64,000 nucleotides of DNA from Actinoplanes lutulentus. Lineage in GTDB: Bacteria; Actinomycetota; Actinomycetes; Mycobacteriales; Micromonosporaceae. Numbering within the stretch: position 1 is the first letter of the stretch; every line of letters starts with the position of its first letter. The position numbers and the translations under genes were made by a program. The notes under the pieces were generated by a model. The model ran no database searches and was not told the DNA's origin. It saw nothing but the letters and a program-made list of their open reading frames with translations. Shown here piece after piece: positions 20,704 to 34,814 of the stretch. Location of the stretch: positions 62,001-126,000 of the forward strand of contig NZ_QLMJ01000027.1 in NCBI RefSeq assembly GCF_003259845.1, in the 5' to 3' direction.

Positions 20704-20777
20704 CCTAGATACTTCTCGAAACAAGAGAGTTGCAGGTTGTTTTGATAAATGTCAACCTAGACGCATGTCGAAACAAG
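20704..20777. repeat. 22-base direct repeat flanking the divergent ars promoter region
   Basis: CCTAGA-N6-TCGAAACAAG occurs at 20704-20725 and again, exactly 52 bases later, at 20756-20777. All 16 defined positions are identical. The second copy covers the arsR start codon; the first lies upstream of the flavoprotein gene. Confidence 0.8.
20742..20755. promoter_or_regulatory. Candidate ArsR operator with a minus-strand -35 element
   Basis: TTGA-N6-TCAA dyad (20742-20745 / 20752-20755) in the arsR/flavoprotein intergenic region, resembling ArsR/SmtB operator half-sites. The same bases on the minus strand read TTGACA (20755-20750), a consensus -35 for the flavoprotein-MFS operon. Confidence 0.45.
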
Positions 20778-21109
20778 CCGAGACCGACCTCAGCCAGGAG
20801 GCGGAATGCTGCCCGTCGCTGGCGGTGAGCCGCATTCCGGCGCAGGCCGCCGCCGCGCTGGCGCCCGCGTTCAAGGCGCTCGGTGATCCCGTCCGGCTCC
20901 AGCTGATGTCGATGATCGCATCCGCGGACGGCGGTGAGATCTGCGTCTGCGACCTGACGCCGGCGTTCGAGCTGTCCGGACCGACGATCTCACATCACCT
21001 GAAGACTTTGCGGGAGGCCGGCCTGGTCGACGCGGAGCGGCGCGGTACCTGGGTCTACTACCGCGCTCGGACAGACGTGATGCGCACGCTGGCGGCGCTG
21101 CTCGCCTGA
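20765..21109 (+). CDS. arsR: ArsR/SmtB-family arsenic-responsive repressor
   Basis: 114-residue winged-helix repressor that releases DNA when it binds As(III). Cys15-Cys16 (in EAECCPS) lie before the DNA-binding domain, and Cys60/Cys62 lie in EICVCDLTPAF. An N-terminal Cys pair plus a cysteine in this region is the arrangement described for Corynebacterium glutamicum-type ArsR. The recognition helix is SGPTISHHLKTLREAGL. The first codons overlap the second copy of the 22-base direct repeat, so the coding start may itself be part of the operator. It is followed by acr3 and arsC. Confidence 0.95.
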   Translation: MSKQAETDLSQEAECCPSLAVSRIPAQAAAALAPAFKALGDPVRLQLMSMIASADGGEICVCDLTPAFELSGPTISHHLKTLREAGLVDAERRGTWVYYRARTDVMRTLAALLA

Positions 21110-21151
21110 CCGCACGCCCCTGTCCAGCACCCGAGATCCAGGAGCACCACC

Positions 21152-22222
21152 GTGAGCACCACCAGCCCGCCCAGCCCACCGGAGACAGCGGTCATGGCCC
21201 GTCTGTCGCGCCTCGACCAGTTCCTGCCCGTCTGGATCGGCCTCGCCATGATCGCCGGGCTGCTCCTCGGCCGATTCGTGCCCGGGCTCGACAACGCCCT
21301 CGACGCCGTCACGATCGGCGGCATCTCGCTGCCCATCGCCCTGGGGCTGCTGATCATGATGTACCCGGTGCTGGCGAAGGTCCGCTACGACCGGCTCGAC
21401 ACCGTCACCGGCGACAGACGACTGCTCCTCTCCTCGCTTATCCTCAACTGGATCGTCGGGCCTGCGCTCATGTTCGCCCTGGCCTGGCTCTTTCTGCCGG
21501 ACCACCCCGAGTACCGCACCGGCCTGATCATCGTCGGGCTGGCCCGCTGCATCGCCATGGTCATCATCTGGAACGACCTGGCCTGCGGCGACCGCGAAGC
21601 CGCCGCCGTGCTGGTCGCCCTCAACTCCGTCTTCCAGGTCTTCGCCTTCGGCGTCCTCGGCTGGTTCTACCTGTCCGTGCTCCCGGGCTGGCTCGGCCTC
21701 GACGGCGCCCAGCTCGAGGTCTCCGGCTGGGAGATCGCCGGAAACGTCCTGGTGTTCCTCGGCATCCCGCTGCTCGCCGGATACCTCACCCGCCGTTTCG
21801 GCGAGCGGGCCAGGGGCCGCGACTGGTACGAGAGCCGGTTCCTGCCGAAAATCGGCCCCGCCGCGCTGTACGGGCTGCTGTTCACCATCGTCATCCTGTT
21901 CGCCCTGCAGGGTGACGCGATCACCAGCCGGCCCTGGGACGTCGTCCTGATCGCGGTGCCGCTGCTGGCCTACTTCGCCATCATGTGGGGCGGCTCCTAC
22001 GCCCTCGGCAAGGCGATCGGCCTGACCTACGAACGCACCACCACCCTGGCCTTCACCGCCGCCGGTAACAACTTCGAACTGGCCATCGCGGTGGCGATCG
22101 GCACCTTCGGCGTCACCAGCGGCCAAGCCCTGGCCGGCGTCGTCGGCCCTCTCATCGAAGTGCCGGTCCTGGTCGCGCTCGTCTACGTGTCGCTGTGGGC
22201 CCGCCGGCGGTTCTTCACCTGA
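21152..22222 (+). CDS. acr3: ACR3-family arsenite efflux permease
   Basis: 356-residue membrane protein with ten predicted helices that exports arsenite using the proton gradient. The essential family cysteine is visible in the helix-4 region GLARCIAMVIIWNDLACGD, and the C-terminal FTAAGNNFELAIAVAIGTFGVTSGQALAGVVGPLIEVPVL block is characteristic (signature near residues 290-330). GTG at 21152 has AGGAG nine bases upstream. It lies 42 bases downstream of arsR, so it is induced with it. Confidence 0.96.
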   Translation: MSTTSPPSPPETAVMARLSRLDQFLPVWIGLAMIAGLLLGRFVPGLDNALDAVTIGGISLPIALGLLIMMYPVLAKVRYDRLDTVTGDRRLLLSSLILNWIVGPALMFALAWLFLPDHPEYRTGLIIVGLARCIAMVIIWNDLACGDREAAAVLVALNSVFQVFAFGVLGWFYLSVLPGWLGLDGAQLEVSGWEIAGNVLVFLGIPLLAGYLTRRFGERARGRDWYESRFLPKIGPAALYGLLFTIVILFALQGDAITSRPWDVVLIAVPLLAYFAIMWGGSYALGKAIGLTYERTTTLAFTAAGNNFELAIAVAIGTFGVTSGQALAGVVGPLIEVPVLVALVYVSLWARRRFFT

Positions 22223-22273
22223 CCCGGACCCCTGCCCGTCAACCCTCGCCTCGGAACAGGAAGAAGCATCCGC

Positions 22274-22687
22274 ATGACCACGAAGCCCACCGTTCTGTTC
22301 GTCTGCGTCCACAACGCCGGCCGTTCCCAGATGGCCGCCGGCTGGCTGCGTCACCTCGCCGGCGACAAGGTCGAGGTCCGCTCCGCCGGTTCGGAGCCCG
22401 CCGACCAGATCAACCCGGCGGCGGTCGAGGCGATGAAGGAGGCCGGCATCGACATCACCGGCCAGATCCCGGCCAAGCTGACCTGGGACGCCGCACAGGA
22501 GTCCGACGTCATCATCACCATGGGCTGCGGCGACGCCTGCCCGATCTTCCCCGGCAAGCGTTACGAGGACTGGAAGCTCGACGACCCCGCCGGCAAGGGC
22601 GTCGACTCCGTCCGGCCGATCCGCGACGAGATCAAGTCCCGCATCGAAGTGCTTCTCGCCGACCTGATCCCTCGCCAGGCCGATTAA
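22274..22687 (+). CDS. arsC: Arsenate reductase, low-molecular-weight phosphatase type
   Basis: 137 residues. It reduces arsenate to arsenite for export by ACR3. The phosphatase loop CVHNAGRSQMA has the nucleophilic Cys at residue 11. Additional cysteines lie in MGCGDACPIFPG (residues about 84-88), followed by the acidic loop KLDDP. In actinobacteria this family is either thioredoxin- or mycothiol/mycoredoxin-linked, and the sequence alone does not settle which. Last gene of the arsR operon, followed by a strong terminator. Confidence 0.95.
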   Translation: MTTKPTVLFVCVHNAGRSQMAAGWLRHLAGDKVEVRSAGSEPADQINPAAVEAMKEAGIDITGQIPAKLTWDAAQESDVIITMGCGDACPIFPGKRYEDWKLDDPAGKGVDSVRPIRDEIKSRIEVLLADLIPRQAD

Positions 22688-22778: not shown

Positions 22779-23894
22779 TCAGTGGTCGAAGGTCACGATC
22801 GTCCGGCCGCCGACGGCGGTGGTGAGGGCGTTGATGGCGTCGGCAGCGGCGTCGAGGGTGACGGAGCCACCCACCAGCCGGTCCAGGGGGAGCCGGCCGG
22901 TCAGGTAGGCCTCGGCGATCAGGGGAAAGTCGCGGGCAGGAACGGCCGAACCGTAGTTGCAGCCCACCACGGTCAGACCACGGGTGACGACGTCCCAGGT
23001 GTCGATCGGTGCGGTCGCGGCGATGGCGGGCATCCCGACCAGGACGGCGGTGCCGCCGGCTGTGAGGAAGCGGGGTGCGCGGGCGGCGACGTCGGGGATG
23101 CCGATGGCGTCGAAGGCGTACGTCACGCCGTCCGGGCAGATGGTCAGGGCCTGGTCGACCTCGGTGCCGTCGGCCAGGATCGTGTGGGTTGCCCCCAGCT
23201 CCCGGGCGGCCTCCAGACGGGACGCGGAACGGTCGACGGCGATGATCGGGCCGGCTCCGGCGTCGGCGGCCGCCGCGATGATGGCCTGACCGACACCGCC
23301 ACAGCCGGTAACGACGATGGCGTCGCCCTTCGCCACGGACACCGTCCTGTGGACCGCGCCGTACCCGGTGGTCACCGAGCATCCGATCAGGGCGGCGATG
23401 TGCGGGGGGACTTCGGGCGGCAGGCGTACGGCGGCGGTTTCCGGGACCACGGCGTACTCGGAGAAGGCCCCCACACCGAGGAACGGCCAGACGTCGGGGT
23501 CATCGGCGGCCGGGTCCTTCACCGCGGTGGTGCCGTCCGGCAGCTGGTTCTCCAGGGCCGGGGAGCCGGTGCACAGCCAGGGCTTGTCCTGCCGGCAGGG
23601 CGGGCAGGCCTGGCAGGCCACGTACCAGTTGAGTGCGACCGGGTCGCCGGGCGCGAGGCCGGTGACTCCCGGGCCGACCTGGTCGACGACGCCCGCGCCC
23701 TCGTGGCCGAGCACCAGGCGCCGGCCCATCGGCCAGTCACCGTTGATGGTGTGCAGGTCGGAGTGGCAGATCCCGGCGGCGGTCATCCGCACCCGGATCT
23801 GGCCCGGTCCGGGCTCGCCGACCTGGGTGTCGACGACCCGCGGGGCGGTGCCGGTGCGGTCGTCGAAGGTCAGGGCGCGTGATGCGATGGGCAT
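22779..23894 (-). CDS. Zinc-dependent alcohol dehydrogenase (MDR family)
   Basis: 371 residues. Catalytic zinc ligands are in GICHSDLH and GHEGAGVV. The structural zinc cysteines are in CQACPPCRQDKPWLC (C-x2-C-x2-C-x7-C). The Rossmann motif is VTGCGGVGQAI near residue 190. The length and the GCSVTTGYGAV segment are close to class III-type and mycothiol-dependent formaldehyde dehydrogenases. It is the last gene of the TIM barrel-Rieske-reductase operon, five bases after the reductase stop. Oxidation of formaldehyde released by an oxidative demethylase would explain the arrangement, but this is inference. The longer open frame reaching upstream to 24296 is the shadow of the reductase. Confidence 0.9.
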   Translation of the reverse strand: MPIASRALTFDDRTGTAPRVVDTQVGEPGPGQIRVRMTAAGICHSDLHTINGDWPMGRRLVLGHEGAGVVDQVGPGVTGLAPGDPVALNWYVACQACPPCRQDKPWLCTGSPALENQLPDGTTAVKDPAADDPDVWPFLGVGAFSEYAVVPETAAVRLPPEVPPHIAALIGCSVTTGYGAVHRTVSVAKGDAIVVTGCGGVGQAIIAAAADAGAGPIIAVDRSASRLEAARELGATHTILADGTEVDQALTICPDGVTYAFDAIGIPDVAARAPRFLTAGGTAVLVGMPAIAATAPIDTWDVVTRGLTVVGCNYGSAVPARDFPLIAEAYLTGRLPLDRLVGGSVTLDAAADAINALTTAVGGRTIVTFDH

Positions 23895-23899
23895 GGCGG

Positions 23900-24853
23900 T
23901 CAGCTTTCGACAAGAGCGGGCGGGGCGGGGAGGTCCAGGACCAGGCGGTCGCAGAGGGCCCGGGAGACGCACGGGAAGACGGCGGTCTGTGCCTGTTTCT
24001 CGTCGGGGGTGAGGATGTCGTCGCGGTGGTCGGCCTCGCCCTTGAGCAACGGGGTCTCGCAGCTGCCGCAGGTGCCCTCCCGGCACGACCAGATGATGTC
24101 GGCACCCGCGTCGAGCAGTACGTCGAGCATCGGGGTGCCGTCCGGAACCTGGCGTACCGGTCCGTCGAGGCCGAACTGGACCTCGAAGGAGCCGTCCGTT
24201 TCGACCGGGGATCCGGCCGGGTCGAACGATTCCGTGCGCAGGCGCCCGCCGGTGACCAGCCCGCTCAGTTCGCTGATCATCCGGTCCGGGCCGCACGCGT
24301 AGACCAGGGCCGAGGCCGGTGCCAGTTCCAGGGCCTGCGCCAGGGTGAAGTCCGGCGTCTGCGAGCGGTCCACGATCATGACCGCGTCACCCAGGGCGGC
24401 CACCCTGTCCAGGAACGGCATCCGGCTGCTGGTGCTTCCGACGTACACAAGGTGGAAAGGTTTTGACTGGGAGGCCAGATGCTCGGCCATGGTCAGGATC
24501 GGGGTGACGCCGATGCCGCCGGCGAGCAGCAGGTGATGCTCGGCGTCCTCCAGCGCGAACATGGCCTTCGGCCCGGCGACCCGGACCTCGGCGCCCACGG
24601 CGAGCGTGTCGTGAACGTGCCGGGAACCGCCGGCGCCGTCCGGGCGCAGCAGGACCGCGAACGTCCACACGCCGTCGTCGCCGGGTGTCCCGCACAGCGA
24701 GTACTGCCGGACCAGGCCCGGCGCGAGCTCCAGGTCGGCGTGATCGCCGGGCTGCCAGGCAGGCAGGTCCGGAGCCTGCACCCGGACCAGGACGACGTCC
24801 TCGGTGACCCTCTCGTGCGCGACCACCACGGCGTCGTAGCGCCGCGGGGTCAT
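23900..24853 (-). CDS. Rieske oxygenase reductase (phthalate dioxygenase reductase/VanB type)
   Basis: 317 residues that carry electrons from NAD(P)H to the oxygenase. Domain order is flavin-binding barrel (RQYSLCGTP near residue 48), NAD domain (LLAGGIGVTPILTM near residue 110, YACGPDRMI) and a C-terminal plant-type [2Fe-2S] domain (CREGTCGSC then the last Cys in VFPCVSRAL). The ATG overlaps the stop of the oxygenase gene by four bases, so the two partners are translationally coupled. Confidence 0.95.
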   Translation of the reverse strand: MTPRRYDAVVVAHERVTEDVVLVRVQAPDLPAWQPGDHADLELAPGLVRQYSLCGTPGDDGVWTFAVLLRPDGAGGSRHVHDTLAVGAEVRVAGPKAMFALEDAEHHLLLAGGIGVTPILTMAEHLASQSKPFHLVYVGSTSSRMPFLDRVAALGDAVMIVDRSQTPDFTLAQALELAPASALVYACGPDRMISELSGLVTGGRLRTESFDPAGSPVETDGSFEVQFGLDGPVRQVPDGTPMLDVLLDAGADIIWSCREGTCGSCETPLLKGEADHRDDILTPDEKQAQTAVFPCVSRALCDRLVLDLPAPPALVES

Positions 24854-26019
24854 GATTGGTACCCCATCCGGGCGGCGACCGCGGTCTGGAACATCGCGGT
24901 GATCTGGTCCCACGACGGCAGCAGCGTGGTGTGGTTCGCGCCGTCGGAGGAGCGCCCGGCCTGCAGTTTGTACAGGAACGGGATGTCCTGTTCGTTGACG
25001 TGGAAGAGCACGTCGCACAGGCTCTTGACGGATTCCTCGAAGCGCGGCGCGGCCGCGTCGGAGTCAACGAAGACGGCCATGTGCTCGACGGTGCGGTCGG
25101 CGGCGGCCGGCGACAGCGCGATCACCTGGAACCAGTCGGCCTCCAGGAAGACCAGGGCGTTGGGGAACACGCAGAAGATATCCTGCGAGTCCACCTTGCC
25201 CGCCGGCACGTCACCGATGAACGGCAGCGCGTCCTCGGACTTCTTGGCCTTGCCGACGGCACCGCGGGGGTAGCAGCCACCGACGATCACCTGGCTGTCG
25301 ATCACCACGTCGTCGACGTCCAGCGAGGCCGCGACCGGTCCGACCTGCGGGTGCACGAACGGCAGGTGGTAGAAGTCCAGGAAGTTCTCGACAGCGAGCT
25401 TCCAGTTCACCTCCAGGTCGAACGTCCGCTCCTGTGCCAGGTGCAGCCTGTCGAAATCGATGTGTGACCAGCGTTCGGCCAGCGGCGCGATGACGTCGGC
25501 GAACGGTGTGGGGTCGGCGCTGAGGTTCACGAACACCATGCCCGCCCAGACCGCGCTCGGCACCGGCAGCAGTCCCAGCTTGCGGCGGGACTCGGGGGAG
25601 GGCGCGCCGCGGCGCTCACGGTTGAAGTACGGCGCGGCCGCGAGGGACCCGTCCAGGTTGTACGACCAGCAGTGGTAGGCGCACTGGATGCGCTGGGTCA
25701 CCTCGATCGGCTCCTGCGTCACGACCATCCCGCGGTGGCGGCACGAGTTGTGGAAGACGTTGACGTTGCCCTCGCCGTCGCGCACGATCAGCAGCGGTTT
25801 GCCGGCCACCTCGACCGGGTGCACATTGCCTTCGTTGCCGACCCAGTGCGTGTAACCGGCCCAGACCCATTCGGCGCTGAAGATCATCCGCTGCTCGCGG
25901 GCGAACTCCTGCGGGTCGGTGTACGCCGAGGCGGGCAGGATCGACCGTCCGTAGGTGTCCTCCGACAGCGGGCCGTCGACGATGGTGTTGCCGGTGCTGG
26001 TGGTCGAGTACGAGGTCAT
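24850..26019 (-). CDS. Rieske non-haem iron oxygenase, alpha subunit
   Basis: 389 residues. The Rieske [2Fe-2S] ligands are CRHRG and CAYHCW (about residues 90-110). The mononuclear iron site is ENFLDFYHLPFVH near residue 210. Overall it resembles the GbcA/CntA group that attacks quaternary amines such as glycine betaine or carnitine, in which demethylation or cleavage releases an aldehyde. No beta subunit is present, consistent with that group. Coupled by ATGA overlaps both to the TIM-barrel gene before it and the reductase after it. The substrate is unproven. Confidence 0.92.
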   Translation of the reverse strand: MTSYSTTSTGNTIVDGPLSEDTYGRSILPASAYTDPQEFAREQRMIFSAEWVWAGYTHWVGNEGNVHPVEVAGKPLLIVRDGEGNVNVFHNSCRHRGMVVTQEPIEVTQRIQCAYHCWSYNLDGSLAAAPYFNRERRGAPSPESRRKLGLLPVPSAVWAGMVFVNLSADPTPFADVIAPLAERWSHIDFDRLHLAQERTFDLEVNWKLAVENFLDFYHLPFVHPQVGPVAASLDVDDVVIDSQVIVGGCYPRGAVGKAKKSEDALPFIGDVPAGKVDSQDIFCVFPNALVFLEADWFQVIALSPAAADRTVEHMAVFVDSDAAAPRFEESVKSLCDVLFHVNEQDIPFLYKLQAGRSSDGANHTTLLPSWDQITAMFQTAVAARMGYQS

Positions 26020-26900
26020 GCGGAACGCTCCATGGGTGCGGATCGAAGTGCCTGGGTGAATGCCTCGGTGGCCCATTCGCGCAGCTGCCCGGCCTCGGCC
26101 CAGCGGTCGCTGACCTGGACGCCGCCGGCATCGGTGATCGCGTACGGGGCGGTGCCGAGCTCGGTGAGGAAGACGACATCGCCGGACGGGCGCCGGCGCA
26201 GGATCTGCTCGAAGGCGTCGGCCCACCACCGCCGGGCCAGCGCGATCCAGGGCCGGCTGGACTCGTGGTGCAGCGGCAGCTGCACCTGGCACCGGGAAGC
26301 CACACGTCCCTGCACCGACCCGCCGCGCCGGAGCAGCGCCGCGATCTGGCTCTCGATCTCGGCGGTCGGCTCGGACGGGATCTCGGCGCCCACGACGTAG
26401 TGCGACAGGTCGATGGCCAGGTCGATGTCCTCGGGCAGGCGCTGGGCGAGCGCCGCGGTGAAGCGCAGGTCGTTGGTCATGGTGTTGCGGTGGGTCTCGA
26501 GCTCCAGCCGCACCCCTTCGCGGGCGGCGATGCCGTGCCAGCGCGCGGTGAGGGCGGCGGCCTCGCCGAGGTCCAGCGTGTAGTGCTGGGCGCACAGCAC
26601 CAGGTCACGGGCTCCGATCGTGGCGGCGTACCGCAGCGCGTCGCCGAGCACCTTCTCGTCCGGGACGAAAGCCATCACGGTGGCACTGAGCCCGCTGCCC
26701 GCCGCCGCGGCGGCCAGATCGGTGCTGGTGGGGGCCTTCGAGGCGCCGAGGTCGACGGCGTACCCGCTGTAGCCCGCGGCGACCAGCTGAGCCAGCTGCT
26801 CCTCCATCGTCCAGGAGCGGGCGCCGCGCCAGGGTAGATCCTCCATGGCCCACAGCGACTGTACGAAGATCAGTCGAGAAGTGTTGTCGTCCTGGCTCAT
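26016..26900 (-). CDS. TIM-barrel sugar-phosphate isomerase/epimerase-like protein
   Basis: 294 residues with features of the AP-endonuclease-2-like/xylose-isomerase TIM-barrel family: EEQLAQLVAAGYSGYAVDLG, RLELETHRNTMTNDL and DLAIDLSHYVVGAE, where acidic and His residues would bind a divalent metal. Members include isomerases, epimerases and dehydratases. It is the first gene of the Rieske operon. A promoter-like sequence ends seven bases before the ATG and there is no Shine-Dalgarno site, so the message may be leaderless. The reaction in this pathway is unknown. Confidence 0.82.
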   Translation of the reverse strand: MSQDDNTSRLIFVQSLWAMEDLPWRGARSWTMEEQLAQLVAAGYSGYAVDLGASKAPTSTDLAAAAAGSGLSATVMAFVPDEKVLGDALRYAATIGARDLVLCAQHYTLDLGEAAALTARWHGIAAREGVRLELETHRNTMTNDLRFTAALAQRLPEDIDLAIDLSHYVVGAEIPSEPTAEIESQIAALLRRGGSVQGRVASRCQVQLPLHHESSRPWIALARRWWADAFEQILRRRPSGDVVFLTELGTAPYAITDAGGVQVSDRWAEAGQLREWATEAFTQALRSAPMERSA

Positions 26901-26907
26901 GGCAATA

Positions 26908-26937
26908 TATCTACGTTAGATTCTGATCATTACGCAA
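26908..26937 (-). promoter_or_regulatory. Putative promoter of the Rieske operon, leaderless start
   Basis: Minus-strand TTGCGT (26937-26932), 18 bases, TAGATA (26913-26908). The expected start site is 26900-26901, at the ATG of the TIM-barrel gene. The region is unusually AT-rich and contains TGATCA, a possible Lrp half-site. Confidence 0.4.
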
Positions 26938-27037
26938 GCAGAAGTTGGCCGTGACCACGGATTTAACAAACAAACTCTTTTCCGGAAATGTGCCCGGCGT
27001 GGGATGCTGTCCACCGCAGCGGAGAGAAGGAGCAGAT

Positions 27038-27913
27038 GTGACGACGGACGAGGTCAAGGAAGCGGTGGCCGCCGCGCTCGCCTCCGACGGCCGGATGTCG
27101 GTGGAGGCGCTGTCTCGCTCGCTGGGGCTCACCAGTGCGGTGGTCCGCAAGGCCATGACGGCGCTGAGCGACGACGGTCTCGCCGTGCGGGCCGTCGTGC
27201 ACCCCGCGGTGCTGGGCCTGCCCGAGTGCGCCCACCTGCGCCTGCGCGTCGACGGCCCGCTCGACCACGTGCTCGACGCGCTGTGTGCCCGGCCGGAGAT
27301 TCCGTTCGTGTCGCACGTGGCCGGCGGGCATACCCTCTCGGCCGAGATCCGGGTGGCCGCCCGCACGACGCTCGCCTCCGTGGTCGCCGAGGTGGCGGCC
27401 CTGCCCGGCGTCGCCGGCGTCGACCTCGACGAGTACCTCGACATCGTGCGTGACGCCAGCCTCGACCTGCCCCGGCCCGGCGTTCCTCAGCCGCTCGACG
27501 AGATCGACCGCGCCCTGGTCACCGAGCTGCAGGCCGACGGGCGGCGCTCGTTCGCCGCGATGGGCGAGCAGGTCGGCCTCACCACCGCGTCCACCCGCAG
27601 CCGGGTGCTGCGCCTCATCGAGACCGAGGCGCTGCGCATCGGTGTCCGCCGGCGTCCCGGCCCCGGCACCGTCCAGGTCGGTTACCGCCTCAGCGCACCC
27701 GCCACACGGGCCGAGACCCTCACCGTGCTGCGCGACCTGCCGGACATGTCGTACCTGGCGCTCACCACCGGTTCGGCCGACTTCGTCGGCACCCTCACCT
27801 GCGCCTCGCTCGGTGACGCGTCGCGGGCGCTGACCCGGCTGCGGGCCGTCCCCGGCGTCCGTGCCCTGCAGAGCTGGACCCACCTCGACGTCGTGAAGGA
27901 GATCTACGCGTGA
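27038..27913 (+). CDS. Lrp/AsnC-family regulator with two HTH-RAM halves
   Basis: 291 residues, about twice the length of a standard Lrp. The first HTH is VEALSRSLGLTSAVVRKAMTAL (motif near residues 20-40) followed by a RAM-like segment. The second HTH is FAAMGEQVGLTTASTRSRVLRLIE near residue 175 followed by another RAM-like segment. GTG at 27038 has AAGGAG upstream. It is divergent from the Rieske operon, so it is the likely local regulator, and its stop overlaps the GTG of the EPSP-synthase-like gene. It is a paralogue in architecture of the regulator at 33828. Confidence 0.88.
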   Translation: MTTDEVKEAVAAALASDGRMSVEALSRSLGLTSAVVRKAMTALSDDGLAVRAVVHPAVLGLPECAHLRLRVDGPLDHVLDALCARPEIPFVSHVAGGHTLSAEIRVAARTTLASVVAEVAALPGVAGVDLDEYLDIVRDASLDLPRPGVPQPLDEIDRALVTELQADGRRSFAAMGEQVGLTTASTRSRVLRLIETEALRIGVRRRPGPGTVQVGYRLSAPATRAETLTVLRDLPDMSYLALTTGSADFVGTLTCASLGDASRALTRLRAVPGVRALQSWTHLDVVKEIYA

Positions 27914-28620
27914 GCACCGAGCTGATCTGGCCCGCTCCCGCCGCGACGATGCCCGTGCGCGCCCGCCTCGACGTGGTCGCCGTGGACAGCACCGGCGCGG
28001 TTGTGGAGGCACCCACCGTCGACGACGCCGCCGTCTTCCTGGCCGGCGCCGCCGTCACCACCGGCACCGTGGTGCTGCGCAACTGGGAAGCCCTCGCCGC
28101 GGACCCCGCCGCCGGCTTGCTGCGCGACCTGCTCGCCACGTTCGGCACCTACGTCGTCCGGTCCGCCGAGGGCTTGACCTGCACCAGCCGGGCCACCTCC
28201 GGACACCTGGACGGCGTCGACCACGACCTGACCGCTGCTCCTGGTCTTGCCGGGATCGCGGTTGTGCTGGCGGCACTCGCGGACAGCCCGTCGAGTCTGC
28301 ACGGTGTGTCCGAGGCTCCGCGCGTCGCCGAGGTCCTGGAGAATGTGACAGCACTGGGTGGTGACGCCACGGTGCGGGCGGGTGTCGTCGAGATCGTTCC
28401 GGGGCCGCTGCGCGCGGGTGCCTGGCAGTCACACGGCGACCCGCGGCTCGGGGCGTTCGGGGCTGTTCTCGGGCTGGTGATTCCGGGAGTGCGCATCGCC
28501 GGCCTCAGCCCGGACGCACCCGGGCTGAGGCCGTTCCTGAAAGCGTGGCGATGGGCCATGACGGCCGACGAGAACATCCTTCCCGGAACGAGTACCGGGA
28601 CCGTGCCCTACTACGGCTGA
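27910..28620 (+). CDS. EPSP-synthase-like half protein, probably not a classical AroA
   Basis: 236 residues, against about 430 for EPSP synthase. By eye it follows the second half of AroA: FLAGAAVTTGTVVLRNW, then LLRDLLATFGTYV, then APGLAGIAVVLAALADSP, then VLENVTALGGDATV, then HGDPRLGAFGAVLGLVIPG. Several catalytic positions differ: the Asp of the PD motif is Gly, the KETDR segment is shortened or lost, and the His of GDHR is Pro. It is coupled by a GTGA overlap to the Lrp-type regulator. It could be a ligand-binding or altered enolpyruvyl-type enzyme serving the Rieske operon. Family membership is moderately sure and function unknown. It converges on the hydroxyacid dehydrogenase with a ten-base overlap. 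Confidence 0.7.
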   Translation: MSTELIWPAPAATMPVRARLDVVAVDSTGAVVEAPTVDDAAVFLAGAAVTTGTVVLRNWEALAADPAAGLLRDLLATFGTYVVRSAEGLTCTSRATSGHLDGVDHDLTAAPGLAGIAVVLAALADSPSSLHGVSEAPRVAEVLENVTALGGDATVRAGVVEIVPGPLRAGAWQSHGDPRLGAFGAVLGLVIPGVRIAGLSPDAPGLRPFLKAWRWAMTADENILPGTSTGTVPYYG

Positions 28621-29540
28621 CGGCTGCGCCACCACTCGACGACGGTGGCCGCGGGCTGCTGTTCGTAGGCCCGCAACGATCCCTCCGAGAGGTAGCCCAC
28701 GTGCGGGGTGACCACCGTGCGGGGATGGGCGCGCAGCGGATCGCCCGCGGCCGGTGGCTCGCCGGTCAGCACGTCCAGGCCCGCACCGCGCAGCCGGCCG
28801 GTGTCGAGGGCGGCCAGCAGCGCGCCCTGGTCGACGATCTCGGCGCGGGACACGTTGATCAGACTGGCCCCGTGCGGCAACCTGGCCAGCTCGGTGGCGC
28901 CCAGCATGCCGCGGGTCTGCTCCGACAGCGGCATGTGCACCGAGAGGACGTCGGCGGCGGCCAGCAGTTCGTCGAGACCGGCACCCTCGACCCCCTCGGG
29001 AACCGGGGCGTACGGGTCGTAGCCGATGACGCGACCGAACATCGGCCGGCCGATCCGGGCGAACTCGGCGCCGATCCGGCCGAGCCCGAGAACACCCAGG
29101 GTGCAGCCGGACAGACGACGCGGCAGGTGCTCGAAGGCCTCCGACCACGAACCCGCCGCGACCTGCTCGGTCACCCGCAGCCCCCGCTCGACGGCCAGCA
29201 CCAGAGCCAGAGCGTGAACGGCGACCTCCTCGGTGGCGGCGCCGTACAGCGGGCGGATCCGCACACCGTGCCGCTCGGCCGCCTCGGCGTCGACCATGTC
29301 GGCCCCGGCCGAGGTCAGCGCCACGAGCTCCAGATCGGGCAGGGCGGCGAAGAAGTCCTCGCCGAGGTGCGCGTAACCGCCGATCGCGGCGACCGCGCGG
29401 GTCGCCGCAGGCGGAACCGCGGGATCGACGTCGAGCTTGAGCACCTCGACGTCGAAGCCGTTGCGGTCGAGCAGATCGACCGCGGGTCGCGGGTCGATGT
29501 CGGAGACGTCGGTCAGGATCACCAAGGGTCGCTGCGTCAC
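28611..29540 (-). CDS. D-isomer-specific 2-hydroxyacid dehydrogenase
   Basis: 309 residues that reversibly reduce a 2-keto acid to a D-2-hydroxyacid with NAD(P)H. The Rossmann motif is LGVLGLGRIG near residue 148. The catalytic Arg is in INVSRAEIVDQGAL, the Glu in LDVLTGEPP, and the His in VTPHVGYLS. It is the last gene of the ABC-ThDP enzyme operon, two bases after the ThDP gene. The substrate could be 2-ketoarginine or a related keto acid if the neighbouring decarboxylase assignment holds. Confidence 0.92.
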   Translation of the reverse strand: MTQRPLVILTDVSDIDPRPAVDLLDRNGFDVEVLKLDVDPAVPPAATRAVAAIGGYAHLGEDFFAALPDLELVALTSAGADMVDAEAAERHGVRIRPLYGAATEEVAVHALALVLAVERGLRVTEQVAAGSWSEAFEHLPRRLSGCTLGVLGLGRIGAEFARIGRPMFGRVIGYDPYAPVPEGVEGAGLDELLAAADVLSVHMPLSEQTRGMLGATELARLPHGASLINVSRAEIVDQGALLAALDTGRLRGAGLDVLTGEPPAAGDPLRAHPRTVVTPHVGYLSEGSLRAYEQQPAATVVEWWRSRQP

Positions 29541-29542
29541 GG

Positions 29543-31114
29543 TCAGAATCCTGCCGCGACGACGACGGTGACCACGTCGGTACGCATCGCCGTGTGGAGA
29601 GCCTCGCCCAGCGCTTCCGGCGAGGTGACCCGTACGCCGTGGGCACCGAAACCCTGGGCGATCAGGGCGTGATCGAACGCGGTGACCTCGGTGTCGACGC
29701 GGGTGGCCGACGCCCGGTCGAAGGAGTCGCGGATCTCCCCGTAACCGCGGTTGTCCCAGATCAGCAGGGTGAGCTGGCGGCCGAGATCGACGGCGGTGGC
29801 CAGTTCGGTGAGGGTGAACAGGCTTCCGCCGTCACCGGCGATCGCCAGTACCGGCCGCTGGGGTTGCGCGATGGCCGCACCGACCGCCATCGGCAGCGCC
29901 GCGCCGAGCGTGCCCAGGCCATAGGTGGCCGTCCAGGCGGTCGGTTCCGCGGGGGAGAGGTAGTGATGGGCGGTGTAGGCCAGCTGGGTGGAGTCCAGGA
30001 CGACGGCGGTGTCCTCGGGAAGGGCCGCGGACACCGCGTCCAGCCATGGGTGATGCCCCAGGGACTGTGCGGTCCACGCGACGCCGGCGCGGGCGTCGCC
30101 GGCCCGGGCAGGGCCGTTCGCCGCCGGCTCCCGGTCGATCAGACCGGTCAGCCGTGCGAGAGCCGTACCGGCGTCGCCCTGAAGTGCCACCTTCGCCGGC
30201 ATCGGGGCCTGCAGGTTCGCCGGGTCGATGTCGAGCCGGATGAGCGAACCACCGAACTCGACGTCCCGTCCGGTGTAGAGCACATCGGTCTCGGAGAACT
30301 CGGTGCCCACCGCCAGGACCACGTCCGCGTCCCGCAGCAGATCCTGGGTGCCGGCGAACGGCAGGAGCGTGCCGACAGCCAGCGGATGGCCGGGGGGCAG
30401 CAGACCCGCGGCGTTACCCGTGGTGACGACCGGCGCCCCGAGCATCTCGGCCAGCGCGCGGACCTCGGCGGCGGCGCCACGCGCACCGCCACCGGCGATG
30501 ATCGCGGGAGTGCCCGCCCGGCCGAGCAGGGCGGCGGCGGCCCGGAAAGCCTCCTGATCGGGCTCGTGTTCTTCAGGCTGAAGAACAACCCGGGTGAAGG
30601 GACCGTCGACCTCGGTGGTGAGGACGTCGATCGGGATGGCGATGTGCGCCGGACGCGGGCGTCCCTCGGTCATCGCGGTCCACGCCCGGGCAACCAGCCC
30701 GGGCAGCTCCTGCGGGGTACGGGCCAGCCACGAATGCTCGGTGACCCCGGCCACCGCGGCCACCTGGTCACGGATGTCGTGCAACGGCCCGCGTTCACGC
30801 CCGAGCAGATCCGAGCGCGTGGTGGCGGTGACGAACAGCAGCGGGATCGAGTCGTGCCAGGCCTGCGCCAGCGGCGTCAGGGCGTTGAGCACACCAGGAC
30901 CGGTGACCAGGGCACAGACGCCCGGCTTGCCCGTCTGGCGCGCGTACGCGTCCGCCATGAAACCGGCGCCCTGTTCGTGCCGCGCGGGGTGGGTGCTGAT
31001 GCCGGCCTCGGCGAACCCTCGATAGAGCTCGATGGTGTGGACGCCGGGAATGCCGAACACGGATTCGACGCCGTACTCGCGCAGCAGCAGGGCCAGGGCA
31101 TGCCCAGCTCTCAT
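29543..31114 (-). CDS. ThDP-dependent decarboxylase, 2-ketoarginine decarboxylase (AruI)-like
   Basis: 523 residues. The N-terminal block FGIPGVHTIELYRGFAEAG with RHEQGAGFMADAYAR closely recalls 5-guanidino-2-oxopentanoate decarboxylase (AruI) of the arginine transaminase pathway. The ThDP motif runs from AGDGGSLFTLTEL (about residue 420) to WDNRGYGEI. It is downstream of an amino-acid ABC transporter and upstream of a 2-hydroxyacid dehydrogenase. Together these suggest uptake and breakdown of arginine or another basic amino acid. No transaminase is in the window, so the pathway is incomplete here. Substrate assignment is inference. Confidence 0.88.
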   Translation of the reverse strand: MRAGHALALLLREYGVESVFGIPGVHTIELYRGFAEAGISTHPARHEQGAGFMADAYARQTGKPGVCALVTGPGVLNALTPLAQAWHDSIPLLFVTATTRSDLLGRERGPLHDIRDQVAAVAGVTEHSWLARTPQELPGLVARAWTAMTEGRPRPAHIAIPIDVLTTEVDGPFTRVVLQPEEHEPDQEAFRAAAALLGRAGTPAIIAGGGARGAAAEVRALAEMLGAPVVTTGNAAGLLPPGHPLAVGTLLPFAGTQDLLRDADVVLAVGTEFSETDVLYTGRDVEFGGSLIRLDIDPANLQAPMPAKVALQGDAGTALARLTGLIDREPAANGPARAGDARAGVAWTAQSLGHHPWLDAVSAALPEDTAVVLDSTQLAYTAHHYLSPAEPTAWTATYGLGTLGAALPMAVGAAIAQPQRPVLAIAGDGGSLFTLTELATAVDLGRQLTLLIWDNRGYGEIRDSFDRASATRVDTEVTAFDHALIAQGFGAHGVRVTSPEALGEALHTAMRTDVVTVVVAAGF

Positions 31115-31134
31115 GGTGTTTCTCCTTACCGATG

Positions 31135-31902
31135 TCAGTGCATGTGAGCGAGGAAGCGGCGGGTGCGCTCGTGCTCGGGGGCGTCGAAGAAACGATCCGG
31201 CGGGGCCTGCTCGACGATCTGGCCGGAGTCGAAGAGGGCGACCTCGGAGGCCACACTGCGGGCGAAGCGCATCTCATGGGTGACCACCACCATGGTCATG
31301 CCGTCGGAGGCCAGCTTCTCCATCACGTCGAGCACCTCACGGACCAGCTCCGGGTCCAGTGCCGAGGTCGGCTCGTCGAACAGCATCAGCTTCGGTTTCA
31401 TCACCAGGGCGCGGGCAATCGCCACGCGCTGTTGCTGGCCGCCGGAGAGCTCCGCGGGGTACGCGTGCGCGCGAGCGGACAGGCCGACCCGGTCGAGCAT
31501 TTCCAGCGCCTGCTCCCGGGCCTCCTTCTTCGGCACCTTGAGGACGGTGGTCAGACCCGACATCACGTTGCGGGTGGCGTCCAGGTGCGGGAACAGGTTG
31601 AACTTCTGGAACACCATGCCGATCGCGGTGCGCTGACGGGCCAGGACGCGTTCGGGCGCCGGACGCACGTCGACCCGGCCACCGATCACCCCGATCGGCT
31701 CGCCGTCGAGCAGGATGGTGCCGGAGTCGGCGGGTTCCAGCAGGCTGATCATCCGCAGGATCGTGGACTTCCCGCTGCCGGACGGGCCCAGCAACGCCTT
31801 CACCTGGCCACGCCGCACGGTGAAGTCGACACCGCCCAGCACCTCGACATTGTTGTAGGACTTGTGCAGGTTCTGCACCTCGAGCAGTGGTGGAGTCTTC
31901 AT
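31135..31902 (-). CDS. Amino-acid ABC transporter ATP-binding protein
   Basis: 255 residues of the polar amino acid uptake (GlnQ/HisP) family. Walker A is GPSGSGKST, the Q-loop is VFQKFNLFPHL, the signature is LSGGQQQRVAIARAL, Walker B is LMLFDEPTSALD, and the switch His is in VVTHEM. The ATG overlaps the permease stop by four bases. It lies 20 bases upstream of the ThDP decarboxylase, in the same operon. Confidence 0.97.
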   Translation of the reverse strand: MKTPPLLEVQNLHKSYNNVEVLGGVDFTVRRGQVKALLGPSGSGKSTILRMISLLEPADSGTILLDGEPIGVIGGRVDVRPAPERVLARQRTAIGMVFQKFNLFPHLDATRNVMSGLTTVLKVPKKEAREQALEMLDRVGLSARAHAYPAELSGGQQQRVAIARALVMKPKLMLFDEPTSALDPELVREVLDVMEKLASDGMTMVVVTHEMRFARSVASEVALFDSGQIVEQAPPDRFFDAPEHERTRRFLAHMH

Positions 31903-32666
31903 GCCGGGACCTTCTCCTGCGTCGTCGTCTGCTTCGGGGAGCCGGCGGCCCCGGCGCGCGAGAGCGCGGGGAAACGGCGCCGGGTGGGCGTGGACGTCCA
32001 GGTGAAGCGGCGCTCGACACGGTTCTGCAGCAGCATCAGCACCGAGACGATCACCAGGTAGTAGACGGTGGCGGCGGCGTAGTACTCGGCGTACCGGAAG
32101 GTGACCGCCACACCCATCTGCGCCGTGGTGAGCAGCTCCTGCAGCGAGATCACGCTGGCCAGCGAGGTGTACTTGACCATGCCGATGAACTCGTTGCCGG
32201 TCGGGGGCAGGGCCACCCGGGTGGCCTGCGGCAGCACGACCTTGAACAGCACCTGGCCACGGGTCATGCCGAGGGCCCTTGCCGCGAGCTGCTGGCCGTC
32301 GTCGACGCTCATCAGCGCGGAGCGGATGATCTCGGCCATGAACGCGCCCTCGGCCAGGGCCAGCCCGATGAAGGCCGCCAGGAACGGCGAGTACCACTCC
32401 TTCTGGAACACCGGGGACAGCTGCGGCAGCCCGTTCCACATCAGCAGGAGCAGCAGCAGCGCCGGGACGGCCCGGAAGAACCAGATGTAGCTGGTGCAGA
32501 GCGAGCGGACCACGGCGAACTTCGAGGACTTGCCCAGGGCCAGGCCGAAACCGATGATCACCGCGCCGATCTGGCTGGCGATGGCCAGGCTCAGCGACAG
32601 CAGGGCACCCCGCAGGTACGCCTCGGAGAACAGTTGATCGAAGAAGATGGTCGAGTCGAATGCCAT
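31899..32666 (-). CDS. Amino-acid ABC transporter permease
   Basis: 255 residues with about five membrane helices of the HisM/GlnP type. The EAA loop is seen in ARALGMTRGQVLFKVVLPQATRVALPP (near residue 145). It is the only permease, so a homodimer is likely. A hairpin lies just upstream and abuts the GGAGG ribosome-binding site. Confidence 0.95.
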   Translation of the reverse strand: MAFDSTIFFDQLFSEAYLRGALLSLSLAIASQIGAVIIGFGLALGKSSKFAVVRSLCTSYIWFFRAVPALLLLLLMWNGLPQLSPVFQKEWYSPFLAAFIGLALAEGAFMAEIIRSALMSVDDGQQLAARALGMTRGQVLFKVVLPQATRVALPPTGNEFIGMVKYTSLASVISLQELLTTAQMGVAVTFRYAEYYAAATVYYLVIVSVLMLLQNRVERRFTWTSTPTRRRFPALSRAGAAGSPKQTTTQEKVPA

Positions 32667-32676
32667 GGGGGCACCT

Positions 32677-32696
32677 CCGCCCGATTCACCGGGCGG
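32677..32696 (-). promoter_or_regulatory. Hairpin between solute-binding and permease genes
   Basis: Perfect arms CCGCCCG / CGGGCGG with loop ATTCAC. On the minus strand its 3' arm runs directly into the permease Shine-Dalgarno GGAGG. This could lower permease translation relative to the binding protein or stabilise the upstream message. Confidence 0.45.
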
Positions 32697-32731
32697 CCGA
32701 TCCGGAACGGACGGCCACCCGGATCAGCGAG

Positions 32732-33598
32732 TCAGTAGACGTTGAGGGAATCGGTGCTCAGCCCGTAGGTCGTGGCGATCTTGCCAAGGGTGCCGTCGGT
32801 GTAGAGCGCCTTCAGGGCCTCGCCCAGCGGAGCGGTGAGTGCGGCGTCCTTGTTGGCGAACATGCCGAACTGGGTGCTGGGCGGGAAGAACCCGTTGATC
32901 TGGCGCAGCTTGCCCGAGCTCTTCTTCACGATGTCGACGGCGGCGACGTCGGTCTCGATCAGCGCGTCGGCCTTGCCGTTCATCACGGCCAGCACGGTGT
33001 CGGAGGTCTTCGGGTAATTCTGCACGGAGGTCTTGGCGGCGCCGGCGGCCTCGCACTCGGAGGCGATCCGCTTGGCCTCCGTGAGGTTCTCGGAGGCGTT
33101 CTGTCCGACGAGGGTGAGCCCGCACAGGTCCTTCTCGGCGGCCGGGTCGGTCTTCACCGAGGTGCCCACGATCAGCGCCGGGCCGGTCTGCATGTAGGCG
33201 ACGCCGTCCAGGACGCTGGTGCGCTCCTCGCTCATGTACAGGCCGCCGGGGATGACGTCGCACCGCTTGGACGTGAGGCCGGGCTGCAGGCCCTCGAAGG
33301 TGGTGACCTGGGTGGCGAACTCAAGGCCCCAGTACGCGGCCAGAGCCCGGGCGGCGTCGGCGTCGAAGCCGATGATGTCCCCGGACGTGCCGTTCTCGTA
33401 GTACTCCAGGGGTGCGTACTCGGGGTCGATACAGACCGTCAGGGTGCCGGCCTTGACCAGCCCTTCCGGAGCGGTGGCCTGAGCCTTGACAGCGGTGACG
33501 GCTTCCGAGGAGCCGGTGGAGTCGGAAGAACTGGAACCACAGGCCGAGAGGCCGAGCAGCGAGGCTGCTGCGGCCGCGGCGATGATCATTCGCTTCAC
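32732..33598 (-). CDS. Amino-acid ABC transporter substrate-binding lipoprotein
   Basis: 288 residues with a lipoprotein signal and lipobox LSAC (Cys at about residue 20). The mature part is a periplasmic-binding-protein type 2 (SBP_bac_3) domain, with GTLTVCIDPEYAPLEYYENG near residue 50 and DIIGFDADAARALAAYWG. The first gene of the transporter-ThDP-dehydrogenase operon, divergent from the second Lrp-type regulator. The ligand is unknown; arginine or a relative is suggested by the decarboxylase downstream. Confidence 0.95.
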   Translation of the reverse strand: MKRMIIAAAAAASLLGLSACGSSSSDSTGSSEAVTAVKAQATAPEGLVKAGTLTVCIDPEYAPLEYYENGTSGDIIGFDADAARALAAYWGLEFATQVTTFEGLQPGLTSKRCDVIPGGLYMSEERTSVLDGVAYMQTGPALIVGTSVKTDPAAEKDLCGLTLVGQNASENLTEAKRIASECEAAGAAKTSVQNYPKTSDTVLAVMNGKADALIETDVAAVDIVKKSSGKLRQINGFFPPSTQFGMFANKDAALTAPLGEALKALYTDGTLGKIATTYGLSTDSLNVY

Positions 33599-33827
33599 GG
33601 GAGATCACTTCCTAGTTGCCGAACCAGGGGGTTGGCCGGGGACGCTAGGTGCCGTTTGTTTCCACCGCATTCCAAATCATTGCGATATCAGGCCTGGGTC
33701 GCGGAATCGTTCCCGTTCTGGGCCGTCTGTAATATCGTTTCGTCGTCCAGGAGGCAGATCAACGAAGGATTTGGACCATCGGTGGGCCGAAGAATTGGTC
33801 CGCCGATTTCCCGGTACGGAGGTCTGG

Positions 33828-34814
33828 ATGAGCGGTTCCCCCCACGAGGAGATGAACGAACGTCTGGTGGCCCTGCTGCGCAGGGACGGTCGCGCCCCGA
33901 TCGTCGACCTGGCGGCCGAGCTCGGCGTGCCCCGTTCGGTGGTCCGCAGCCGGCTGCGCGAACTGCGGGAGAGCGGCGACATCGCGATCGTCGCCATCGC
34001 TCATCCGGCCGTCCTGGACCTGGACGTCGGATGCCACCTCTCCATCAAGGTCTACGGCTCCACCCGCGACGTCGTCGAGCATCTGCTGGCGGCCGAGAAC
34101 GTCACCCTCGTGTCCCTGGTGAGCGGGGAGTACGACATCGTGGTCGAGCTCCGGGCCCGCGACCAGCGCGAACTCTTCGACGCGGTGGAGGAGATCCGCC
34201 TCTCGGACGCCGTCCGTGAGGTGTGCACGCTCGTCTACGTCGACGTGCTGCGCAGCCCGTTCGCGGCGGCCGCACGTCCGGCGCAGGTACGGCTCGACGA
34301 GATCGACCTGGCCATCGTGCACCGGCTGCAGGACGACGGCCGCATGCCGTTCCGGGAACTCGCGGAATCCGTCGGGGTCTCCGAGTCCACCGCGCGTACC
34401 CGGACCCTGGCGTTGCTGGAGCGGGAGGTCATGCGGATCTCGACCATCTCCCGCCGCGGCCGGCGTACCCGGAACATGGCGATGGGTCTGGGGATGCACG
34501 TGCGGGGATACTCCGAAGACCTGGTAGCCACCATCCTCGAGATCCCCGGGGTCGAGTTCCTGGCCACCGTGATCGGGAATTACGACATGATCGGCACCAT
34601 CTCGGGGAACTCGCTGCCGGCGTTGCAGCGGATCGCCGAGCAGGTGCGCTCGTCCTCCGACGTCACGGGAATCTGCACCTGGGTGCACATGGACTTCGTC
34701 CGTGAGACGTACCGGCTCCCGCTCGGCGGTGGCACGGCCGGCGTGACGCCCGCCGCGCGCCGTGGTTCACGAGCTCCCAGCACTCCGGCGGAAGATCCGT
34801 TCGCGCTGCTGTGA
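33828..34814 (+). CDS. Lrp/AsnC-family regulator with two HTH-RAM halves
   Basis: 328 residues. The first HTH is IVDLAAELGVPRSVVRSRLREL near residue 25, followed by a RAM-like segment (HLSIKVYGSTRDVVEHLLAAE). The second HTH is FRELAESVGVSESTARTRTLALLE near residue 180, followed by a second RAM-like segment. The ATG has GGAGG five bases upstream. It is divergent from the amino-acid ABC operon across 229 bases and is its likely regulator. A dyad GGACCA (33773) / TGGTCC (33796) lies in that region. Confidence 0.9.
   Translation: MSGSPHEEMNERLVALLRRDGRAPIVDLAAELGVPRSVVRSRLRELRESGDIAIVAIAHPAVLDLDVGCHLSIKVYGSTRDVVEHLLAAENVTLVSLVSGEYDIVVELRARDQRELFDAVEEIRLSDAVREVCTLVYVDVLRSPFAAAARPAQVRLDEIDLAIVHRLQDDGRMPFRELAESVGVSESTARTRTLALLEREVMRISTISRRGRRTRNMAMGLGMHVRGYSEDLVATILEIPGVEFLATVIGNYDMIGTISGNSLPALQRIAEQVRSSSDVTGICTWVHMDFVRETYRLPLGGGTAGVTPAARRGSRAPSTPAEDPFALL

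Follow-up and report, generated by a model that had tools for sequence, protein, structure and literature searches.

A half-size EPSP-synthase-like protein encoded in overlap with a tandem Lrp regulator: one retained enzyme domain and a possible regulatory role

A gene for a half-size relative of EPSP synthase (half-AroA; 27910..28620, + strand, 236 aa, GTG start) was analysed in the window (the whole 64,000-nucleotide stretch of DNA under study, which lies on contig C27 of its own genome, G000; residue numbers follow the window's half-AroA throughout). A first-pass annotation of this DNA had proposed an EPSP-synthase fold that lacks an intact active site and is tied to an Lrp regulator, and this is well supported: the active-site motifs are broken and the gene overlaps an Lrp gene in 7/7 genomes with the protein. 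Half-AroA may well be, at about an even chance, a non-catalytic EPSP-synthase domain that was recruited as the dedicated partner of a tandem AsnC/Lrp regulator.

Domain architecture and active-site motifs

Half-AroA had a sole Pfam match, EPSP_synthase (PF00275; E 4.8e-14, residues 39–196 against profile positions 238–400 of 417), with a score of 52.3 bits at a cut-off of 22.8, which places it in the superfamily; its six homologs scored 42.6–60.5 bits, all above the same cut-off. The best solved relative was EPSP synthase of M. tuberculosis (E 5.7e-13, residues 35–214 against 238–420). Both alignments agree with the earlier description of a half-size protein that resembles the second half of AroA over about 200 residues; the C-terminal half does match, but the protein is not a plain second half, since the N-terminal strand of AroA is kept as well. 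Against the NCBIfam aroA model (TIGR01356) half-AroA scored 58.6 bits, far below the equivalog cut-off of 287.25, and the two domains of a functional AroA were not found, the six homologs matching the Pfam profile only from position 202 onward. When the own genome (9.9 Mb) was searched with PF00275, four matches were obtained: one AroA, two MurA-type proteins and half-AroA itself. The full-length aroA, for which a genome check had been suggested, is therefore present elsewhere (TIGR01356, 368.9 bits). The same search bears on the idea that half-AroA is one subunit of a split enolpyruvyl transferase whose missing domain comes from another protein. Two-domain enzymes can in principle be split, but no partner half was among the four matches and the positions of E112, H178 and K204 are lost in the remaining domain; this reading is extremely improbable and was rejected because the full-length PF00275 matches of the genome were aroA and the two murA-type genes only.

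The retained N-terminal AroA strand (W7–V22, 27928..27975, + strand) has W7 and P10 in 7/7 half-proteins and 60/60 AroAs; its WPAPAATMPVR resembles the AroA N-terminus (TWPAPTAPTPVR in M. tuberculosis), and about 20 N-terminal residues in all match the AroA strand. In EPSP synthase this strand and the C-terminal half pack together in a single domain, so half-AroA keeps one whole, discontinuous domain made of these two parts, and the other globular domain is gone. In place of the lost domain there is a linker after the strand, which varies among half-AroAs. A structure model built from an alignment with a single AroA (pLDDT 61.7, pTM 0.65, residues 1–32 below pLDDT 50) was compared with M. tuberculosis EPSPS (2bjb; VIA Z 24.6, rmsd 1.9, 194 residues aligned, model 13–217 on chain 10–423), and Foldseek gave 1.6e-11, with likeness to one EPSPS/MurA domain. 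The predicted EPSP-synthase fold was borne out by this Z score on a model of modest confidence; the test is partly circular because AroA was the model's only alignment partner, and prediction from the single sequence was poor (pLDDT 36).

The half-AroA of G110 (L040:1207-2127) carries an extra 65-residue stretch, which aligned with the start of the AroA match of the window's own genome (21/66 identical, E 0.001 for that single comparison) and part of which was placed by Pfam on a later unit of the lost domain. The alignment suggests that the stretch resembles one remaining unit of that domain, that the loss may have been stepwise and that this protein is a possible evolutionary intermediate.

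Active-site motifs were compared in an alignment of the 7 half-proteins with 60 actinobacterial AroAs (L018, L068 and L069, which were badly cut, were left out of the AroA set). PGSKS, ELTP, HETDR, DHRM and KT, which we take to be the catalytic and substrate motifs of AroA, are near-invariant in the 60 AroAs, and each is broken in all seven half-AroAs. The residues at positions E112, H178, K204 and T205 are each found in 60/60 AroAs and altered in 7/7 half-AroAs; the Glu of ELTP is replaced by G, S, L or R, the His of DHRM by P, A or V, and both residues of KT are changed. The three motif losses listed in the first-pass annotation are real, with adjustments: the window copy has the Gly described as 'Asp to Gly', but the AroA residue at this position is Glu in 60/60 AroAs; the segment said to be lost ('KETDR') is shortened, with SEAPR for the HIRGHETDR of AroA and thus five residues fewer, and the E and R of HETDR still have aligned counterparts in E135 and R138; and 'GDHR to GDPR' holds as DHR to DPR, with D and R still present in the window copy. 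AroA active-site columns kept in the window copy are thus E135 and R138 (HETDR) and D177 and R179 (DHR), and an altered activity of half-AroA is possible because these four residues are kept. Over the seven copies E135 survives in 1/7 (the window), R138 in 4/7, D177 in 6/7 and R179 in 1/7 (again the window).

Likeness to AroA extends to W7, P10, A40, F43, G52, G79, L89, D106, L107, G150, L189 and W213, which are found in 60/60 AroAs and 7/7 half-AroAs; the differences are the number of domains (two in AroA, one in half-AroA) and the five motifs, intact in AroA and broken in half-AroA. A second set of residues is invariant in 7/7 half-AroAs and present in at most 3/60 AroAs (R19, Y81, V83, R94, T96, S97, P111, V119, P137, G176, E221, P225 and G226). 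Some of these lie in a half-AroA signature, Y81–G98 (YVVRSAEGLTCTSRATSG; 28150..28203, + strand), which has a short insertion relative to AroA and in which Y81, R94 and T96 are found in 7/7 half-AroAs and 0/60 AroAs. Others lie in a specific C-terminal tail, A219–S228 (ADENILPGTS; 28564..28593, + strand), with E221, P225 and G226 in 7/7 half-AroAs and at most 3/60 AroAs; the tail motif ADExxLPGT is present in 6/7 half-AroAs.

Occurrence, ancestry and selection

The search for other Lrp/half-AroA pairs that had been recommended with the first-pass annotation was run and gave six further genomes; close homologs are found in seven genomes of two families, the window included. In the window's genus half-AroA was present in 3/67 genomes searched (G000, G056 and G814), and in another family of the order (f4) in G089, G110, G125 and G181 among 17 genomes searched; in that family of 17 genomes the four half-AroAs scored at least 304.6 bits and three other matches at most 139.8, the latter, from their scores and the lengths of their frames, being taken as full AroAs. 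Across 397 genomes drawn from the order, half-proteins scored at least 178 bits and the best other among the matches listed 119.5. A draw of the class (394 genomes) gave no further half-AroA; besides the own match, 41 passed 1e-38, all with at most 152.4 bits. Sequences were checked for 19 of the 41 and all were AroA (17 over roughly 410–430 residues, L069 over 362, L068 a fragment only), and the remaining 22 were judged by score only. The phylum draw (296 genomes) returned the own genome only, and the family of G084 (5 genomes, too small a sample to show much) gave no half-AroA. In a draw of the window's family f1 (200 genomes) G000 and G814 were recovered with no new half-AroA, and G056 was missed, so this and the other draws are to be read as samples. 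The large draws scored few candidates per genome and may miss distant forms, and they overlap, so that their counts are not additive. No half-AroA relatives were found in the viral contigs scanned, and the three matches from plasmids were weak, each spanning less than 80% of the query. One candidate relative on a genome contig (L001, Dermacoccus) was rejected as a full-size AroA of 448 aa.

In a tree of the half-proteins with 60 AroAs the seven half-AroAs fell on one side of a branch with support of 100/99, to which a long-branch warning applies; when G089, the trio of the window's genus or the four proteins of family f4 were left out, the remaining half-proteins were still on one side. A single origin of half-AroAs is supported by these trees, short of proof. 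The nearest AroA rows changed between the tree checks and all distances were large, so that the trees point to no particular AroA as the parent.

All seven half-AroA reading frames are open. NG86 dN/dS within the trio (G000, G056, G814) was 0.226, 0.233 and 0.264, and differences between the window and G056 at the three codon positions were 0.18/0.12/0.43; half-AroA is under purifying selection in this close trio. Distant pairs gave dN/dS of 0.47–0.78, values that are near saturation and little informative. Within the trio the evolutionary rate of half-AroA is roughly double that of the Lrp it overlaps (dN 0.16–0.19 vs 0.06–0.09). The faster rate, the varying linker in the position of the lost domain and the apparent remnant of that domain in G110 would suit a decaying or passenger aroA fragment kept by chance beside a regulator. 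Neither of the marks of a pseudogene, relaxed selection or a broken frame, was found, however, and the open frames in 7/7, dN/dS of 0.23–0.26 in the trio, new invariant residues in common, a single tree group and occurrence on two Lrp types all speak against decay. It was this possibility, decay of a fragment that lacks conserved relatives, that had been named beforehand as contrary to a functional protein; what was found instead was homologs, selection and shared new residues, on which grounds the decay reading, which is very unlikely, was set aside.

The overlapping Lrp gene and its identity in the two families

Half-AroA directly follows Lrp1, a tandem regulator (27038..27913, + strand; start set by homology, longest ORF from 26945) in which Pfam finds two HTH_AsnC and two AsnC_trans_reg stretches. 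The stop of Lrp1 and the start of half-AroA share a 4-bp GTGA (27910..27913, + strand), and a 4-bp overlap of this RTGA form (ATGA or GTGA) with the stop of a tandem AsnC/Lrp gene is found in 7/7 genomes, counting G089 and G125, in which the half-AroA frame is open further upstream and the overlapping start was the one chosen. Translational coupling of the two genes is inferred from this arrangement. The overlap and the divergent orientation of Lrp1 and the TIM-barrel/Rieske operon match what had been noted at first pass, namely coupling with an Lrp that faces the Rieske operon. With its paired HTH and paired ligand-binding domains the coupled regulator resembles known tandem AsnC/Lrp (feast/famine) regulators; what differs is the overlapping EPSP-synthase-derived gene behind it. 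A literature search, made mostly without subscription papers and thus a weak sign of novelty, found no report of such a pairing and no EPSP-synthase or enolpyruvyl-transferase pseudoenzyme.

Two tandem Lrp paralogs are present in 6/7 clusters, the 18.5 kb of G089 that were read showing no second one. In the window the second (Lrp2; 33843..34814, + strand, start approximate) has no half-AroA behind it, and its counterparts in family f4 have one: in the window's genus half-AroA stands behind the regulator facing the TIM-Rieske operon, in f4 behind the one facing the transporter operon. A tree of 15 Lrps was grouped by position (transporter side vs TIM side, 100/99) and not by coupling, and a tree in which the coupled Lrps were forced into one clade was rejected (p-AU 0.0044); gene order agrees. 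Judged by simple best match, three of the f4 family's four coupled Lrps are nearer Lrp2, and the coupled Lrp of G110 is nearer Lrp1, contrary to the tree. Because its partner is a different paralog in each family, half-AroA appears to track Lrps and not one fixed neighbour. If half-AroA has a single origin, either the partner changed or half-AroA once stood behind both Lrps and was then lost from one; as only seven genomes are known, the partner change amounts to one contrast between two groups. No second copy or remnant was found behind the uncoupled Lrps at E ≤0.01 (12 stretches, all seven half-proteins as queries), and three chance-level matches (E 0.001–0.007) in the searched stretches lie away from these Lrps. 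We tentatively consider, at rather less than an even chance, that the single EPSP-synthase domain is a movable regulatory subunit for tandem Lrps, a cofactor for docking or ligand binding, without catalytic activity, that was switched between two paralogs of one cluster with its Lrp overlap kept. If true, this would be the first regulatory use of the enolpyruvyl-transferase fold.

The catabolic cluster and the proposed role

The two genes lie in an accessory catabolic cluster (22779–34814) with a Rieske oxygenase, a reductase, an alcohol dehydrogenase, a TIM-barrel protein, a 2-hydroxyacid dehydrogenase, a ThDP enzyme, an ABC transporter and the two Lrps. The operon that faces Lrp1 begins with the TIM-barrel gene (xylose-isomerase-like; 26019..26900, - strand; PF01261 E 0.0014, under the cut-off, with homologs in the six other clusters), and beyond this gene lie those for the Rieske oxygenase alpha subunit (24850..26019, - strand; PF00355 and PF00848, likewise with homologs in the six other clusters), a reductase with ferredoxin and NAD-binding domains (23900..24853, - strand; Fer2 and NAD_binding_1, start approximate) and a zinc alcohol dehydrogenase (22779..23894, - strand; PF08240 and PF00107, start approximate), a close homolog of which was found only in G056 among the stretches read. 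Convergent with half-AroA, with ends overlapping by 10 bp, is a D-2-hydroxyacid dehydrogenase gene (28611..29540, - strand; PF02826, 2.7e-49), and beyond it lie a ThDP enzyme of the 5-guanidino-2-oxopentanoate decarboxylase subfamily (29543..31114, - strand; NF005712, 533.6 bits, cut-off 500) and a polar amino-acid-type ABC transporter consisting of ATPase, permease and substrate-binding protein (31135..33598, - strand). The amino-acid-type transporter, D-2-hydroxyacid dehydrogenase, TIM-barrel protein, Rieske oxygenase and reductase are found in 7/7 clusters and the ThDP enzyme in 6/7 (the 18.5 kb of G089 that were read showed none), its subfamily being named for the window copy; Lrp1 matches of at least 87% were limited to 3/67 genomes of the genus. 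The substrate of the cluster is perhaps a guanidino or betaine-like acid.

Half-AroA could itself act in this pathway as a small enzyme or binding protein with a new chemistry, its co-expression with the Lrp only setting its level. It occurs with the Rieske/2-oxoacid cluster in 7/7 genomes, has new invariant polar residues (R19, R94, T96, S97, E221) and, in the window copy, retains some old active-site residues. The active site of EPSP synthase lies between its two domains, however, and one of the domains flanking it is gone; the gene stands directly behind the regulator in 7/7 genomes and never inside an enzyme operon; and in G084 (L110) and G093 (L111) related clusters with one Lrp seen keep dehydrogenase-like, TIM and Rieske genes without half-AroA. 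Because the gene adjoins the regulator and not the enzymes, and because the two related clusters manage without it, the pathway-enzyme reading is unlikely and a regulatory role is favoured over a catalytic step. Two dehydrogenase matches elsewhere (G539, G565) had no TIM, Rieske or Lrp match nearby. The L110 and L111 clusters have different transporter genes and a CobD/HisC-like aminotransferase (the L110 copy below cut-offs) convergent with the single Lrp seen, and an ORF of L110 resembles, by eye, the class II aldolase of L036.

The conservation of the surviving half and the overlap with the regulator gene argue that half-AroA probably aids the regulator and does not make a product. In the mechanism proposed for a regulatory partner, an ancestor of EPSP synthase (AroA) type would have lost one of its two globular domains, and the other, discontinuous domain would have stayed together as a single unit in which the active-site motifs are broken. 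Half-AroA would be made right after the tandem AsnC/Lrp, probably by translational coupling; it would then dock on the Lrp, perhaps via the new C-terminal tail, and/or bind some small, acidic metabolite from the catabolic cluster beside it, and might thereby adjust the control that the Lrp exerts on the divergent operon. An arrangement with no contact between the two proteins, in which half-AroA is an independent metabolite sensor or buffer and tunes the Lrp by holding an acidic pathway ligand, has in its favour the conserved Arg, Ser and Thr residues, the overlap with the Lrp gene and the affinity of EPSP-synthase domains for phosphate and carboxylate ligands; most of the residues generally known to bind ligand are gone, however, and the new C-terminal tail appears more like a contact peptide than part of a pocket, and we regard such a sensor as rather improbable.

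Regulators derived from enzymes exist (Gal80, NmrA), and half-AroA as a regulatory partner would resemble them in the reuse of an enzyme fold in transcription control; they differ in having other folds, and the regulatory role of half-AroA is argued from genomic evidence alone. We know of no dead-enzyme regulator with the EPSP-synthase fold. If the regulatory-partner reading is true, half-AroA would be a clear case of a metabolic enzyme stripped of one domain and of its active site, whose remainder was rebuilt as the partner of a transcription regulator, with G110 as an apparent intermediate and two lineages with different Lrp partners, and it would show a route by which Lrp/AsnC proteins gain extra sensing parts and be a warning to annotators not to name such half genes 'aroA'.

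In the divergent promoter region between the TIM-Rieske operon and Lrp1 (26901..27037) short blocks (CAAGCARAAGTTG, ACAAACAAA) are kept in 3/3 close genomes and are inferred to be a putative operator. A short ACAAAC-type block is found on opposite strands in this region and in the second promoter region (33599–33840) and is kept in three close genomes; it is a possible candidate for a shared Lrp site and is short enough to have arisen by chance, and the promoter regions had no inverted repeat in common. Beside the cluster, three small genes at 20765–22687 resemble, by eye, ArsR, an ACR3-type arsenite transporter and ArsC, and an ORF of 2001 aa at 37571–43576 has a codon bias typical of real genes and a start that, by eye, resembles an export signal.
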